Shown: positions 40,375 to 47,069 of the stretch, in pieces | Position numbering within the stretch: the stretch's first letter is position 1 | Layout of the letters: the number at the start of each line of letters is the position of its first letter | Notes under the pieces: generated by a model | The model's input: only the letters and a program-made list of their open reading frames with translations | The model's database searches: none | Told to the model about the DNA's origin: nothing | Position numbers and translations under genes: made by a program | Source: Coriobacteriia bacterium | Lineage (GTDB): Bacteria; Actinomycetota; Coriobacteriia; Anaerosomatales; PALSA-660 | Direction of reading: 5' to 3' | DNA length: 51,374 nt | Assembly (NCBI GenBank): GCA_025361335.1 | Contig: JANYAK010000057.1 | Coordinates: 1-51,374, forward strand

Positions 40375-40433
40375 CACTGCGGGCGGCCGGGCGCCGTCCG
40401 CGAGTCATGACGAGCCGGAGGGGGATCACCAGC

Positions 40434-41654
40434 ATGGCGATCGGGCAGGACACCGCAATCCACGACGGGATCTCCGCACGGCTGGAGGAGTTCGCCGAGC
40501 GCCGGGCGGCCATGAAGGGCGCGGACCGGTACTTCTATCTGCAGCCGACGACCGGTGTGACGAACCATCGGGTCACGATGGCGGATGGTCGCGACATGGT
40601 GATGCTCGCCTCGTACAGCTACCTGGGCCTCATCGGGCACCCGAGGATCGACGCCGCCGCCAAGGAGGCCATCGACACCTACGGGTCGGGTGCCGGCGGA
40701 GTGCGTCTGCTGACTGGCACGACCGACCTGCACCAGCGGCTCGAGTCGCGCATCGCCTCGTTCACCAAGCGTGACGACGCGTGCGTGTACTCCTCCGGAT
40801 ACGTCACCAATGTCGCCATCGTCACCGCGCTGACCGGTCCGGGTGACCTGGTCCTCATGGACAAGCTCGACCACGCGTCGATAGTCGACGGAGCCCTCCT
40901 GTCCGGTGCCAAGTGGAAGACCTATCGCCACAACGACATGACGCATCTGGAGAAGCTGCTGGCGGAGGCAGCGGGTGCGTACGCGACCGTTCTGGTCATC
41001 GCTGACTCGGTGTTCTCCATGGACGGCGACATCATGGACCTGCCGATGACGCGCGAGCTCTGCGACCGATATGGGGCGCGGCTCATGGTCGACGAGGCGC
41101 ACTCGATCGGGGCGCTGGGCGCCACCGGACATGGGATCGAGGAGCACTTCGACATGTACGGTTCCATCGACGTGAAGATGGGGACGCTGTCCAAGTCGAT
41201 CCCATCGGTGGGCGGCTACTGCGCCGGCGACGAGTTGCTCGTCGATTTCCTCCGCCACTTTTCGCGCCCGTTCATCTTCTCGGCGGCGCTGCCACCGGCG
41301 TCGACGGCCGCCGCGTTGGTCGCGTTCGACGTGATCGAGGACGAACCGTGGCGGGTCACATCGCTCCACGAGCAGCAGGCGAAGTACTCGCGGGGCTTGG
41401 CAGCTCAGGGCTGGGACACGATGCGCTCGACGACATGCGTGGTGCCGGTGATGGTCGGCGACGAGTCGAAGACCATGGACCTGACCCGGATGCTGTTCGA
41501 CCGTGGGATCTTCGTCTGCCCGATCGTGCATCCCGCCGTGCCGCGGGGGACGGATCGTCTGCGGACGTGTCTCATGGCCACACACACCGACGAGGACATC
41601 GCGCAGGCGCTAGCGGCGTTTCAGGAGTCGGGAAGAGCGCTGGGACTGATCTGA
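40434..41654 (+). CDS. alpha-oxoamine synthase family PLP enzyme (KBL/AONS/SPT-like)
   Basis: 406 residues from the ATG at 40434, with GGAGGGGG 9 nt upstream; an ATG at 40407 lacks a ribosome site. Fold-type I PLP enzyme: YSYLGLIGHP, GSGAGGVRLLTGT, DEAHSIGALGATGHG and the PLP lysine in GTLSKSIPSVGGYCAG. These fit the alpha-oxoamine synthase family, which condenses an amino acid with an acyl-thioester. Subfamily (2-amino-3-ketobutyrate ligase, 8-amino-7-oxononanoate synthase, serine palmitoyltransferase or CqsA-like) is not resolved; the SIPSVGGY form looks closest to serine palmitoyltransferase-like members. No biotin or threonine genes are nearby. Confidence 0.85.
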   Translation: MAIGQDTAIHDGISARLEEFAERRAAMKGADRYFYLQPTTGVTNHRVTMADGRDMVMLASYSYLGLIGHPRIDAAAKEAIDTYGSGAGGVRLLTGTTDLHQRLESRIASFTKRDDACVYSSGYVTNVAIVTALTGPGDLVLMDKLDHASIVDGALLSGAKWKTYRHNDMTHLEKLLAEAAGAYATVLVIADSVFSMDGDIMDLPMTRELCDRYGARLMVDEAHSIGALGATGHGIEEHFDMYGSIDVKMGTLSKSIPSVGGYCAGDELLVDFLRHFSRPFIFSAALPPASTAAALVAFDVIEDEPWRVTSLHEQQAKYSRGLAAQGWDTMRSTTCVVPVMVGDESKTMDLTRMLFDRGIFVCPIVHPAVPRGTDRLRTCLMATHTDEDIAQALAAFQESGRALGLI

Positions 41655-41771: not shown

Positions 41772-43976
41772 GTGCCCTCGACCGAGCGCGACCCGTCCGA
41801 CGAGCCCGACACTCCCGCGTTCCCGGTCGATGAACCGGCGGCGCGAAGGACTGGAGCTTCGCTCCTCTCGGGCCGTGTGAGGCGCATCGCATGGATGAGC
41901 CCTCTCTTCGTCGCAGCTATCGCCCTCTCGGGCATGCGTGATGTCGCGTGGGCCTACACTCTGGGCGAATCGGTGCTCACGCTGGTCGTCTTGGCGTCGT
42001 CCGCGATGGCGCTGCTCGCGTGGCGGTCGACGTTCGGGGGGGAGCGGCGGTTCTGGCTGGGCGTGTTCGTGTCCGGCGTCCTCATCGCGGTTTCCCAGCT
42101 CTACTACGCGTACTACGTGATCGTCGTGGATGCGCGCGGACCAGTGGTCCCGTCGCCGGCGACATGGCTCGATCTCGCCGGCGCGATCGTGTTCGTTCTG
42201 GTCCTGATGTCGTTCACGCGATTCCGCCATGCCTCGGTCGCCGCTCGCATCCGATACTCTCTCGACGTGGTAGCGCTGTCGTTCGTGACCGCCGTCGTGA
42301 CGTACATGGTGCTGATCGATCCGTGGTATGAGGCGCTCGGCCTTGATGCGCGAGCACCGCGGGTGCTTGCCGCCTGCTACCCGGTGATCGCGGGTCTCAT
42401 CGTGAACGGCGTCGTTTGCAACCTCCTGGGCGCCCATCCCTCGAAGTGGGAGTCCTGGGAGCGGCTGCTCGCCGGGGGGCTGGGATGTCTCGCGGCCGGC
42501 CTCCTGCTCTGGCCGCTGTGGTACGCATCGACGGCAGCCGGCTTCGGGGGCCGAGCGGGCATCGTGGCGCCCGAGGCACTCACGGGTGCCGGGATGCTGC
42601 TCATCCTGTGGGCGACGGTGGACAGGCGGGCGAATCGCGCTGTCAGTTGGTTCGCCGGCCACACGGGCGGGGTCGAGACGACATCGGGGTGGAGCCCGAC
42701 GCTCGTCATCCCCGGGATCGAGATCGCGGCGATCCCTCTGTTCGGAGTCCTCTCCTACCGCTGGAGGGGATACGGCGCTCCCGGTCGGTTGTACGCGCTG
42801 GCAATGACCGCCGCAGTGGGTCTGGTCGTGGCGCGCACGGTCCTGACGGTCGTGGACAACGCACACCTGCTGGATCGCGCGGTGACCGATCCGCTCACCG
42901 GGCTCTTCAATCATCGGTCCATGCACTCGCGATTGCCAAGCGCCCTTGAGGGCGCTGTGCGTTTCCACGAGCCCGTGTCGCTGGTCGTCATGGACGTGGA
43001 CGATCTTCGCGCCGTCAACGTCGCGGGGGGGCACTCGGCGGGCGACGCGGTGTTGGTCGGCGTCGCCAAGGCGGTGCGTGGCGCCGTCCGGCGCGGCGAC
43101 TGGGTGTTTCGGCTCGGTGGCGATGAGCTCGCGATCCTGCTCCCGGAAACCGGCATCGGCGACGCCTTGGCCGTCGCGCGCAAGGCGTTGGCAGCCATAC
43201 GCCGGGTTCGGCTGCCCGACGGGCGGGCAGCCACCGCATCGTTGGGGCTGGCGACGTTCCCGGTGCATGCGACGACCGTGGAAGACCTCCTGCACCGCGC
43301 GAACGGTGCGCGGTACTGGGCGAAGTACCACGGCAAGGACCAAGCGGTGGTGTACGACAGCGCGGTCGTGACCGCGCTCGACGCGGAGGAGCGCATCCGG
43401 ACCCTCCAGGAGGGCATGCACCTGGACGCCGTCCGCGCTCTTGCGGTTGCGGTCGACGCCCGCAGTCCTGGCATGGAGCACCACTCGCGCAACGTCGGGG
43501 CTCTTGCGGTCCTGTTCGTGCGTCACCTCCGGATGGACGAGCGAACGGCGAACTTGATCGAGGTCGCCGCGCTCGTGCACGACGTCGGCAAGATCGGCAT
43601 CTCCGATCGCATCCTCGGCAAGCCCGGCCCGTTGTCGGCCGACGAGATGCTTCTGGTCCGCGAGCACAGCGCACTCGGCGAGCGCATACTCGCGTCGACT
43701 CGATTCACGGAGGTTCTGCCGTGGGTCCGGCACCATCACGAGCGATGGGACGGCAGGGGATACCCCGACGGGATCGCCGGCGAGGACATCCCCGCTGAGG
43801 CGCGGATCATCGCGCTGTGCGACTCGTACGACGCGATGACCTCCGACCGGGCGTACCGCAAAGCCATGTCCAAGGCGGCCGCGCTGCAAGAGATCGATCT
43901 CAACCTCGGAACGCAGTTCGATCCGCACCTCGGCGAGGAGTTCATACGTGCGGCTGTGGCGCTCGATGAGATCTAG
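41772..43976 (+). CDS. membrane GGDEF + HD-GYP cyclic-di-GMP protein
   Basis: 734 residues, GTG start. Around eight or nine membrane helices (about 40-370) form a sensor region. The GGDEF domain (about 375-530) has GGDEL at 449-453 in place of GGDEF and an intact inhibitory-site RRGD five residues before it. The HD-GYP domain has the HD dyad (His603-Asp604 in HDVGKIGI) and HHERWDGRGYPDG. HD-GYP domains hydrolyse c-di-GMP. With the complete HD-GYP signature this copy is probably the active one of the pair; it overlaps the next, homologous gene by 29 bp. Confidence 0.88.
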   Translation: MPSTERDPSDEPDTPAFPVDEPAARRTGASLLSGRVRRIAWMSPLFVAAIALSGMRDVAWAYTLGESVLTLVVLASSAMALLAWRSTFGGERRFWLGVFVSGVLIAVSQLYYAYYVIVVDARGPVVPSPATWLDLAGAIVFVLVLMSFTRFRHASVAARIRYSLDVVALSFVTAVVTYMVLIDPWYEALGLDARAPRVLAACYPVIAGLIVNGVVCNLLGAHPSKWESWERLLAGGLGCLAAGLLLWPLWYASTAAGFGGRAGIVAPEALTGAGMLLILWATVDRRANRAVSWFAGHTGGVETTSGWSPTLVIPGIEIAAIPLFGVLSYRWRGYGAPGRLYALAMTAAVGLVVARTVLTVVDNAHLLDRAVTDPLTGLFNHRSMHSRLPSALEGAVRFHEPVSLVVMDVDDLRAVNVAGGHSAGDAVLVGVAKAVRGAVRRGDWVFRLGGDELAILLPETGIGDALAVARKALAAIRRVRLPDGRAATASLGLATFPVHATTVEDLLHRANGARYWAKYHGKDQAVVYDSAVVTALDAEERIRTLQEGMHLDAVRALAVAVDARSPGMEHHSRNVGALAVLFVRHLRMDERTANLIEVAALVHDVGKIGISDRILGKPGPLSADEMLLVREHSALGERILASTRFTEVLPWVRHHHERWDGRGYPDGIAGEDIPAEARIIALCDSYDAMTSDRAYRKAMSKAAALQEIDLNLGTQFDPHLGEEFIRAAVALDEI

Positions 43977-46164
43977 CGACCAGGCCCTGAACCGGGAGAC
44001 GGGTTTCAGCCACGATGTGCACGCCAGGGGAACCCTGTTGGGCGGGCCTGTCGGCAACGCCGTAGCGGTCGCGGGATTCCTGCTGTTCGGGGCAGCCTAC
44101 CTCAGCGCGAATTCATTGATGCCCACGCCCATGGCAGGGTTCGTCGTGGGCGAGATCGCCTTCGTCGTGCCGATGCTCGTCGCGATCGCGGCGGGTTGGG
44201 CCGTGCATCGCCGCTCCCAGGGCCCCGAGTCGCGGTTCTGGACGGCACTGGTGGGCGCGAACGTCGTGCTGCTGACCAGCGAGGCGTACTGGGCATGGTG
44301 GATCGTGGCGGTCGACGTCACCGGTCCCCCTCCTGTGTACGCGTCCTTCCAGATCCTTCACGCCTTCGCCGGCGCTTTCGTGTTCTTCGCCCTGGTCAGC
44401 ATGACTCGCCTGCAGAACGCGACGAGGATCACGAGGCTGCGGTTCGCCCTGGACGTGATCGCCGGGCTCACACTGGTGTTCGTGGCGATCTTCGGCGCGG
44501 TGGTCCAACCCCTCTTCGCCAGTATCCCTGGGATACTCGACGCCGAGCGCATAGCCGGTGCCGCATACCCGACGGCCGCGATACTGATGTTGGGGTCGAC
44601 GCTCGCCGCCATCCTGGGGCTGAAGATGACACGCTGGCGTCCGTGGGAGGGGCTGGTCGCCGGGTCCCTGTGCATCTACGCGGCCGGCATCGCCGCGTGG
44701 CCCCTGTGGCTCACTACCGCCCATGCGCACGCGGTGTCCCTCGAACGCGGCTTGCTGGAACTCGTCCCGCTGCTGGGTCACTACATGCTCGCGGTGGCGG
44801 CGATCTCTCGACTCATCATGCGGCATCAGCAGTGGCCGCTTCGACCCATGCCTCTGTTCCAGCCGTCTCGCAATCGCGTACGGGTATTGATCCTTCCCGC
44901 CATATGGCTGTCATCTGTGCCCGTCCTTTCGGTGCTCGCCATGCGCACTCCTTCGGGGACGCTCGACTACCGGGTGTATGTGGGTGCGACGACACTCATG
45001 GCGCTTGTTGTCGTCGCTAGGGCCGCGTTGTCGGCCGCCGAGAGCGGCAGTCTCTTCCACAATGCCGTGACGGATCCCGTCACGGGGCTGTTCAACCTCC
45101 GATTCCTTCACGAGCGCCTCGCGGTTGAGGTCGATGTGGCGCGGCGCTACTCGGAGGAGCTGAGCGTGATCGTCATCGATGTCGACGACTTCGAGATGGT
45201 CAACGAGTTGCACGGCCACCCCGCGGGCGATGATGTCCTGCGCGCACTCGCCGCCGTTCTCGACGAGTGCTCGCGCGAGCACGACACCGTCAGCAGGTCG
45301 GGGGATGATGAGTTTGCCGTCGTCATGCCGGACGCCGGCGCGATAGAGGCGCTCAAAGTCGGGCTGTGCGTCCAGCAGCGCCTTCAGGGCGTGAGGTTCG
45401 ATTGGGGCGCCACGATCACCGTCTCGATGGGCATCGCCACATTCCCCGACAGCGCAACAGAGCCCGAGGAGTTGTTGCGCCTCGCTGAGGGCGCCCGGTA
45501 CTGGGTGAAGCGGCATGGCAAGGCGCAAGCGCTGGTCTACGATCCCGACGTCGTGCGCGAACTGGACGTCGACGACCGAATCCATGCTCTGGAGGAGCAG
45601 TCTCATCTGGGGGCGGTACGAGCGCTTGCCGCGGCCGTGGACGCCCGCGACCCCGCCACGCGGGACCATTCGCGCCAAGTGTCGCGACTGTCGGTCGGCG
45701 TGGCGCGCCATCTGGGTCTGGACGAGCAGCGCGTCAGGCTCATCGAATCAGCCGCCACCGTGTATGACGTCGGGAAGATAGGAGTCCCTGACGACATCCT
45801 GCACAAGCCGGGTCCGCTGACGCAGGAGGAGTGGACGGTGGTGCGCGAGCACACGATCCTCGGCGAGCGCATCATGGGATTCACGGCCCGCCAGATGATC
45901 CTCCCGTGGGTGCGGCACCATCACGAGCGGTGGGACGGAAACGGCTATCCTGACGGGCTCCGGGCCGTCGCCATCCCCCTCGAGGCGCGGATCCTCGCCG
46001 TCTGCGATGCGTACCAGGCGATGCGGTCCGAGCGCCCGTATCGCCACGCCATGTCCGCGGAGACGGCTGAGACGGAACTGGTGGCCGGAATGGGCTCACA
46101 GTTCGATCCGGCGGTGGTCGAAGTGTTCCTGCGCGCGCTGGAGGGTCGGGGCGAAGAGGCCTGA
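43948..46164 (+). CDS. membrane GGDEF + HD-GYP paralog with degenerate motifs
   Basis: 738 residues from the GTG at 43948 (GAGGAG about 8 nt upstream), inside the end of its paralog. The architecture is the same: membrane helices (about 35-370), then GGDEF and HD-GYP. The GGDEF motif reads GDDEF (452-456) with an inhibitory-site REHD before it. The HD dyad is YD (Tyr606-Asp607 in YDVGKIGV), losing a metal ligand, while HHERWDGNGYPDG is intact. It is likely a pseudo-enzyme that senses or binds c-di-GMP, or regulates its neighbour through heterodimers. It probably arose by tandem duplication and diverged. Confidence 0.86.
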   Translation: MRLWRSMRSSDQALNRETGFSHDVHARGTLLGGPVGNAVAVAGFLLFGAAYLSANSLMPTPMAGFVVGEIAFVVPMLVAIAAGWAVHRRSQGPESRFWTALVGANVVLLTSEAYWAWWIVAVDVTGPPPVYASFQILHAFAGAFVFFALVSMTRLQNATRITRLRFALDVIAGLTLVFVAIFGAVVQPLFASIPGILDAERIAGAAYPTAAILMLGSTLAAILGLKMTRWRPWEGLVAGSLCIYAAGIAAWPLWLTTAHAHAVSLERGLLELVPLLGHYMLAVAAISRLIMRHQQWPLRPMPLFQPSRNRVRVLILPAIWLSSVPVLSVLAMRTPSGTLDYRVYVGATTLMALVVVARAALSAAESGSLFHNAVTDPVTGLFNLRFLHERLAVEVDVARRYSEELSVIVIDVDDFEMVNELHGHPAGDDVLRALAAVLDECSREHDTVSRSGDDEFAVVMPDAGAIEALKVGLCVQQRLQGVRFDWGATITVSMGIATFPDSATEPEELLRLAEGARYWVKRHGKAQALVYDPDVVRELDVDDRIHALEEQSHLGAVRALAAAVDARDPATRDHSRQVSRLSVGVARHLGLDEQRVRLIESAATVYDVGKIGVPDDILHKPGPLTQEEWTVVREHTILGERIMGFTARQMILPWVRHHHERWDGNGYPDGLRAVAIPLEARILAVCDAYQAMRSERPYRHAMSAETAETELVAGMGSQFDPAVVEVFLRALEGRGEEA

Positions 46165-46184: not shown

Positions 46185-47069
46185 TCATCCGAGTCGGCCC
46201 ATTGCCGCGGAGACGTCGCGAGGCCGCAGCGCCTGCCGCCACAACGGTCCCGTGAGCTGCGGCAGACCGTCGCCGTACGTGGCGCGGCCCTCCTCCTGGT
46301 AGATGACACCGATCGGCAGGCGGCATTCGTCCGGAGAACACGAGAGGTCGTGGTACGTCGAGAGCGAGAGCGCGAACGCGGCGTTCTTGTCGTAGGGGTC
46401 GTGGCCCGTCTCGTCCACCTTGTATACGCGATCTCGGAACCATGTCGCCGTGTTGAGCTTGTTCCAGGTGACGCACGGCTGGAAGACGTCGACCACCGCG
46501 AACCCACGGTGTCGCATGGCGGCAACCATGAGCGCCGTCAGGTGCGCCGGGTCGGCGGAAAAGCCGCGGGCCACGAACGTCGCGCCCTCGGCAATGGCCA
46601 GCCCGAGCGTGTTGACAGGCTCCTCCAGCACGCCGTCGGGGGTCGAGATGGTCTTCATGAACTGCTCGGTCGTGGGGGAGGCCTGCCCGGTCGTCAGCCC
46701 GTAGATCTGGTTGTCGTGGACGATCACGGTCACGTCGATGTTGCGGCGGCATGCGTGCGCGAAGTGGCCCAGTCCGATGCCATATCCGTCGCCGTCGCCC
46801 ATCTCCACGACGACGTGGAGGTCGGGGTTCGAGAGCGCAAGGCCGGTGGCGACCGGCAGGGCGCGCCCATGGAGCGCGTGGAAGCCCTGGCAGCGCGTGA
46901 AGTCGGCGCCGTTTCCGTGGCATCCGATGCCCCACACGACCGCGAGTTCCTCGAAGGACCAGCCGACCTCCTGGTAGGCCTGCTTGAGCGCCTGCCACAT
47001 GCCGAAGTTGCCGCACCCCGGGCACCATGTGGGGCGGTTCGCCGTTTCGAATTCCTTCACATCAGGCAC
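46185..47069 (-). CDS. korB: 2-oxoacid:ferredoxin oxidoreductase beta subunit
   Basis: 294 residues from a GTG (GGAGG 9 nt upstream). The N-terminal WCPGCGNFGMWQAL carries the CxxC of the proximal iron-sulphur cluster, further Cys follow in GIGCHGNG, and GDGDGYGIGLGHFAHACRRN binds thiamine diphosphate-Mg; VTWNKLN and YGLTTGQ are family motifs. With KorA it oxidatively decarboxylates a 2-oxoacid (2-oxoglutarate is the usual substrate of this subtype) and reduces ferredoxin. It overlaps korA by 8 bp. Confidence 0.9.
   Translation of the reverse strand: MPDVKEFETANRPTWCPGCGNFGMWQALKQAYQEVGWSFEELAVVWGIGCHGNGADFTRCQGFHALHGRALPVATGLALSNPDLHVVVEMGDGDGYGIGLGHFAHACRRNIDVTVIVHDNQIYGLTTGQASPTTEQFMKTISTPDGVLEEPVNTLGLAIAEGATFVARGFSADPAHLTALMVAAMRHRGFAVVDVFQPCVTWNKLNTATWFRDRVYKVDETGHDPYDKNAAFALSLSTYHDLSCSPDECRLPIGVIYQEEGRATYGDGLPQLTGPLWRQALRPRDVSAAMGRLG

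Follow-up and report, generated by a model that had tools for sequence, protein, structure and literature searches.

What the second of two adjacent GGDEF/HD-GYP proteins does, when key residues of both its domains are altered, is the question raised by a locus of the window (the whole 51,374-nucleotide stretch of DNA analysed here, to which positions refer). A sequence-only reading had proposed a dedicated active/inactive tandem pair. Both frames, on the forward strand like all features of the pair given below, proved real and of the lengths first proposed, the upstream partner gene (P0002, nt 41772–43976) coding for 734 aa and the downstream one (P0001, nt 43948–46164) for 738 aa. Their open frames overlap by 29 bp (nt 43948–43976), as had been claimed, and the overlap is plausible because a Shine-Dalgarno-like AGGAG (nt 43936–43940), read by eye, lies 7 nt 5' of the GTG at nt 43948. 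Its length is not conserved, since the frames of the pair in a genome of the same genus (G001) do not overlap, and a conserved 29-bp overlap was rejected on this ground. A promoter/terminator scan of the pair returned one promoter-like site, on the opposite strand, and no terminator.

GGDEF and HD_5 domains were detected by Pfam well over cut-off in both proteins. In the downstream protein the GGDEF domain spans nt 45064–45525 (PF00990, E 5.9e-33), and the HD-GYP domain nt 45625–46116 (PF13487, E 1.9e-32; PF01966, E 3.1e-15), the latter also supported by a fold match. About ten transmembrane (TM) helices, which the sequence-only reading had passed over, are found at the N-terminus of both proteins; downstream, ten predicted helices occupy residues 35–361 (nt 44050–45030), with a best Pfam E of 0.13 and no family assigned. 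No match to a profile of the TM module turned up in 80 wider loci, of which the forward ORFs were searched, and in the samples searched the ten-helix module is restricted to the order. Residues E94, R95, R96, W98, R165, D169, R288 and R358 are conserved in the module (window nt 44050–45030 and the matching part of 41772–43976).

The residue changes first proposed for the downstream protein were all recovered by motif scan and alignment. GDDEF (G452-D-D-E-F456, nt 45301–45315) replaces the GG(D/E)EF active-site motif, and an RxxD (REHD, R443 to D446, nt 45274–45285) is found in register at the I-site position, five residues ahead of it. Tyr606-Asp607 (nt 45763–45768) stand at the position of the HD dyad, while the HHExxDGxGYP motif is present as HHHERWDGNGYP at residues 657–668, including GYP (666–668, nt 45943–45951). 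By fold and sequence the downstream protein is an HD-GYP relative and not a canonical HD-GYP enzyme. In a phmmer alignment with the characterised HD-GYP protein PmGH (4mcw), Tyr606 falls exactly on the HD histidine, named H221 in the paper, in agreement with the suspected change of a metal ligand. The other metal ligands and K610 are retained. A further change, Gln690 (nt 46015–46017) at the position of PmGH D308, had escaped the sequence-only reading and is unique in the family set, the column being D, E or (once) A in all 65 other covering rows. Column 606 is equally strict, with His in 66/66 other family rows and Tyr in none; across wider HD-GYP domains the HD histidine was found in 83/84 (Ser in the remaining one), in a scan seeded with motifs such as HHHERWDG and thus biased towards canonical domains. 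Constraint is far lower at column 453, with Gly in 44/67 rows and Asp in three other rows.

The altered state is known from a single genome, a draft of 61 contigs, and the codons of Y606 (TAT) and D453 (GAT) are each one transition from a His or Gly codon, as an assembly or sequencing error would have it. Such an error is nevertheless very improbable, given three separate active-site changes (G453D, H606Y and D690Q) in an open frame of 738 codons whose third-position GC of 83% is coding-like.

The upstream copy had been taken as an intact HD-GYP protein. This holds for the HD dyad (H603-D604, nt 43578–43583) and for GYP, and the protein also has GGDEL (residues 449–453, nt 43116–43130) and RRGD; it does not hold for the catalytic D183 of PmGH, in whose place a serine (Ser565), not remarked before, is found. 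The D183-equivalent Asp is kept in just 45/67 family rows. Calling the upstream copy active is an assumption because this equivalent is missing. In PmGH, D183A abolishes or nearly abolishes activity, as do H221A, K225A and D308A, while activity is not fully lost in E185A and D305A (PMC4159591).

The pair itself is old. The downstream protein was found in six of eight genomes searched in the bacterial family, with the upstream paralogue in each, the two partners being on separate contig ends in one of them (G004). Beyond the family, 39/69 genomes of the order had a match at 1e-90, and 41/396 genomes of the class at 1e-70, all 41 within the order, so that the protein is order-restricted at these thresholds. 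In a phylogeny of the pair, which had been suggested as a check (68 rows; the fragments L107 715-1704, L107 2895-3662 and L138 8924-10504 were left out), the upstream copies of the six genomes group in a clade of their own (support 97), as do the downstream ones (99), and either clade is nearer to single-copy genes from other families than it is to its counterpart (96 and 81). The partners are thus co-conserved, both clades comprising the same six genomes, and share a synteny: across the nine loci examined the slot is conserved, the pair being flanked by a PLP enzyme gene on one side and korBA on the other. In the window these neighbours are a forward-strand gene at nt 40407–41654, presumably coding for a PLP-dependent aminotransferase-like (AONS-like) enzyme, and a convergent gene at nt 46185–47069 (reverse strand), which we take to be a 2-oxoacid:ferredoxin oxidoreductase beta subunit-like gene. 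In the relatives, genes that we likewise presume to be korB and korA adjoin the pair in G001, G002, G004, G005 and G006 (in G006 the contig ends within korA), and a presumed AONS-like gene lies beside it in G001 and G002. The same neighbours flank a single gene in G041, G043 and G049, while L141 lacks both. On this tree and synteny, the paralogues have stood side by side since before the bacterial family diverged. Elsewhere in the order, tandem pairs or triples, often with altered GGDEF motifs, occur at L135, L142, L150-L152, L154, L156, L161, L164, L165 and L167-L170, and a homologue at L107 (G045:C171) is broken by one in-frame TGA.

The damage, on the contrary, is not conserved along with the pair. 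In the downstream copies of G001 (same genus, 60% identical) and of G002 (next genus), GGDEF and every essential residue (scored as H574, H606, D607, K610, H635, H658 and H659) are intact, and both partners of these two genomes are intact at all essential residues. A sister genus of the family (g3, three genomes) has K610M in all three, joined in two of them by H574R or H574Q. With the copies of G001 and G002 intact and those of g3 lacking other residues, the state is a patchy and recent one; by these comparisons, the damage in the window looks like a recent trait of one genome rather than a long-standing partnership. Of the dedicated active/inactive pair first proposed, the old paralogues lying side by side and the missing downstream metal ligand stand, and the conserved inactivity of one partner does not; a fixed active/inactive partnership was rejected because the sister genomes have both partners intact.

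A rival account would be redundancy after tandem duplication, by which one copy, whichever it is, became free to lose activity, recently and with no regulatory gain, its decay being not yet visible. In 66 of the 68 rows (two fragments were left out), at least one essential residue is lost in 0/5 complete upstream and 4/6 downstream copies of the window's family (f1), the latter counting as two events because the g3 trio shares K610M. In other tandems losses affect 4/17 first or middle members and 1/13 last members, so that either partner can be hit, always the downstream one in f1 and more often the upstream one elsewhere. In the branch of the window, moreover, the changes in the two domains and at D690 came together. 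Loss of essential phosphodiesterase residues was seen in 9/41 complete tandem members and in 0/25 single-copy members (Fisher p 0.011); however, the losses amount to six events across the tree, all in tandem members, and once phylogeny was taken into account the contrast was not significant (median p 1 over independent pairs, too few of which were informative). Given six events with shared ancestry, the contrast between tandem and single-copy members was rejected as evidence.

Redundancy is also at odds with the rate of change, as neither the HD-GYP domain nor the downstream protein as a whole evolves faster than the upstream copy. HD-GYP terminal branch lengths are 0.328 (downstream) and 0.327 (upstream), the G000/G001 branch ratio (window genome first) is 1.71 downstream vs. 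1.73 upstream for the TM part, 1.77 vs. 2.17 for GGDEF and 1.42 vs. 1.92 for HD-GYP, and whole-protein identity between the same two genomes is 59.8% downstream and 53.1% upstream. At a conservation threshold of 95% across 65 rows, 19 HD-GYP columns qualify, of which the downstream copy keeps 18 and breaks only H606; at a threshold of 90%, one of 28 columns is broken (G004_1of2f, G057_2of2 and G045_s were left out of this test). As conserved columns are kept and no branch is accelerated, a general decay of the downstream gene was rejected, and we regard plain redundancy as a somewhat unlikely explanation.

The 388-residue catalytic half of the downstream protein was predicted at a mean pLDDT of 93 and a pTM of 0.66, from a structure alignment of 49 rows in all (two from the window), 48 of them relatives of the protein; those from outside the window were part of the proteins of the 80 wider loci. 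The HD-GYP part of the model matches 9rbz, 4mcw and 4r8z, 9rbz being the top Foldseek match of the catalytic half; PDB chains compared beyond Foldseek were mostly GGDEF, and the HD-GYP half was less tested. The fold shared with PmGH (4mcw; Z 24.2, rmsd 2.3, 186 aligned) shows, at the level of a predicted model, that the fold is kept, and does not speak for function. PmGH is active and trinuclear, whereas P0001 is without the equivalents of H221, D308 and E185. Out of the eight c-di-GMP contacts of the 9rbz protein, DvhD, five (L624, Y667, M692, R696 and Y698) are kept in the downstream protein, a count read by hand from the phmmer alignment with a numbering offset inferred from residue identities.

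Our preferred reading, to which we give about an even chance, is that of an old tandem pair whose downstream copy has recently become non-catalytic and is now a c-di-GMP- and/or GTP-responsive subunit. A membrane-anchored protein of c-di-GMP turnover, made of a 10-TM input module followed by GGDEF and HD-GYP, would have been duplicated in tandem long ago, and the pair kept in the conserved slot. The downstream copy would recently have lost cyclase activity via G453D and the ordinary metal-dependent phosphodiesterase activity via H606Y and D690Q, retaining the RxxD site, most of the residues that contact nucleotide and an HD-GYP domain that still folds, and may modulate the upstream partner or another membrane target as a non-catalytic subunit. 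This reading is built on the residues, the alignment, the predicted fold, the co-conservation and the fact that no decay was seen; from these we infer the loss of activity, the binding of nucleotide and the physical partnership. P0001 probably still binds nucleotide next to its partner, and its present function is most likely that of a non-catalytic, nucleotide-responsive membrane subunit. Against this, the state is seen in one genome, so that a conserved function does not follow, three of the eight DvhD contacts differ, and an order-wide family described below keeps Tyr together with every other metal ligand.

In favour of the preferred reading, the genome has a c-di-GMP system, with 9 GGDEF, 1 EAL, 11 HD_5 and 6 MshEN matches and no PilZ match; having six MshEN and no PilZ, the c-di-GMP output may go via type II/IV secretion or pilus ATPases.

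Known systems resemble P0001 in part, and several of them speak for the preferred reading. The architecture of PA2572 (Pseudomonas aeruginosa) reportedly differs from that of P0001. The two proteins are alike in having Tyr for the HD histidine and unlike in that PA2572 has also lost the Asp, its YN-GYP domain being inactive in c-di-GMP hydrolysis (PMC3774798). The HD-less Vibrio proteins VC1087 and VCA0895 are inactive as well (PMC4212101). DvhD (Desulfovibrio vulgaris, PDB 9RBZ/9RC0), like P0001 a membrane-anchored HD-GYP protein without the HD dyad, is an inactive c-di-GMP receptor which, with SQ for HD, binds c-di-GMP and does not cut it (PMC13090378). It has, however, lost HD and both HH (SQ and MN), whereas P0001 has lost one ligand only; it carries dCache and PAS where P0001 has 10 TM and GGDEF, and its target is a periplasmic protease, whereas P0001 has no adjacent target gene. 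For the other domain, the closest parallel is CC3396/PdeA (Caulobacter), whose GEDEF has, like P0001, an acidic residue for the second Gly of GGDEF and which is DGC-inactive, binds GTP and activates its neighbour (PMC4823724); unlike in P0001, this neighbour is an active EAL domain of the same polypeptide. Care is needed with such motif changes, since AGDEF can be active (PMC3974145).

A similar caution applies to Tyr606, which might be a ligand or be tolerated near the site, leaving the downstream HD-GYP domain a metal enzyme. The domain keeps the other metal ligands and K610, whereas the g3 copies have lost K610 and often H574, and RpfG is active though without two of the eight PmGH ligands (PMC4159591). 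Opposed to this are the loss of activity in PmGH H221A and the second change, D690Q, at a position that matters in PmGH, even if VCA0681 is reported to be active with Gln at the D308 position (PMC4212101). A further argument for a metal enzyme came from the genome itself: among its 11 HD_5 matches (two loci being read as the same protein), Tyr occupies the HD position in two, P0001 and P0003, the latter a 514-aa HD-GYP protein unrelated to P0001 (G000:C53:34906-36447, equal to L007:1228-2769, reverse strand).

Including itself, P0003 has 57 orthologues at E 3e-109 or better in the 69 genomes of the order, and Tyr is fixed at the HD histidine in 57/57. In the 31 aligned rows of the family H, D, K, H, HH, D and GYP are invariant and the other metal ligands are all kept. 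The DNA pattern YD[ILVM]GK matched 56/396 genomes of the class, all 56 in the order; by coordinates, 56/57 pattern matches lie inside P0003 orthologues, the remaining one being P0001, and the one orthologue still left, that of G064, reads YDLGK. To judge by this family, a metal centre may be able to accommodate Tyr. The family shares with P0001 the Tyr at the HD histidine, the retention of all other ligands and the genome; unlike P0001, it has neither GGDEF nor TM part, is orthologous across the order and has its Tyr fixed. Since the Tyr is invariant throughout an order-wide family, it is unsafe to equate YD with a dead enzyme, and the step from Tyr to inactivity is uncertain.

In a phylum sample 8/396 genomes had a match, and the four new ones gave three GGDEF-HD-GYP proteins also without the H189 equivalent (L235, L237 and L238) and one match without an open frame. 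These are ordinary degenerate domains, and as YD examples they argue against a metal enzyme. P0001 resembles the P0003 case in the other ligands kept, and the degenerate case in its single-genome spread and in D690Q. Among the papers searched, none was found that reports an assay of the P0003 family, mentions 'YD-GYP' or joins HD-GYP with pseudoenzyme or with Coriobacteri. A downstream domain still acting as a metal enzyme is, all considered, unlikely.

Tyr-Fe(III) ligation is used by purple acid phosphatases. This favours a metal enzyme. In a bolder proposal, which we judge decidedly unlikely, Tyr in place of His would define a distinct HD-GYP state and no dead end, with tyrosinate-Fe(III) in an order-wide binuclear 'YD-GYP' enzyme or redox-sensing switch, and P0001 would have come to this chemistry on its own, through a single base change.

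The locus bears on a general problem, as degenerate c-di-GMP domains are common and a regulator is often hard to tell from a relic. Within one family of genomes the old pair occurs intact, with a single kind of damage and with damage of another kind, a natural series in which to ask at what point a paired phosphodiesterase turns into a regulator. Of wider interest is the YD-GYP family that spans the order and whose invariant Tyr directly challenges the habit of calling any HD-GYP protein without the His inactive. A scan of viral contigs with P0003 found none. A HEAT-repeat gene lies closely upstream of the YD-GYP gene at L240:4236-6086, L241:4907-6823 and L242:8150-10105, recognised by Pfam HEAT_2 in L240, just below the cut-off in L241 and by homology in L242.
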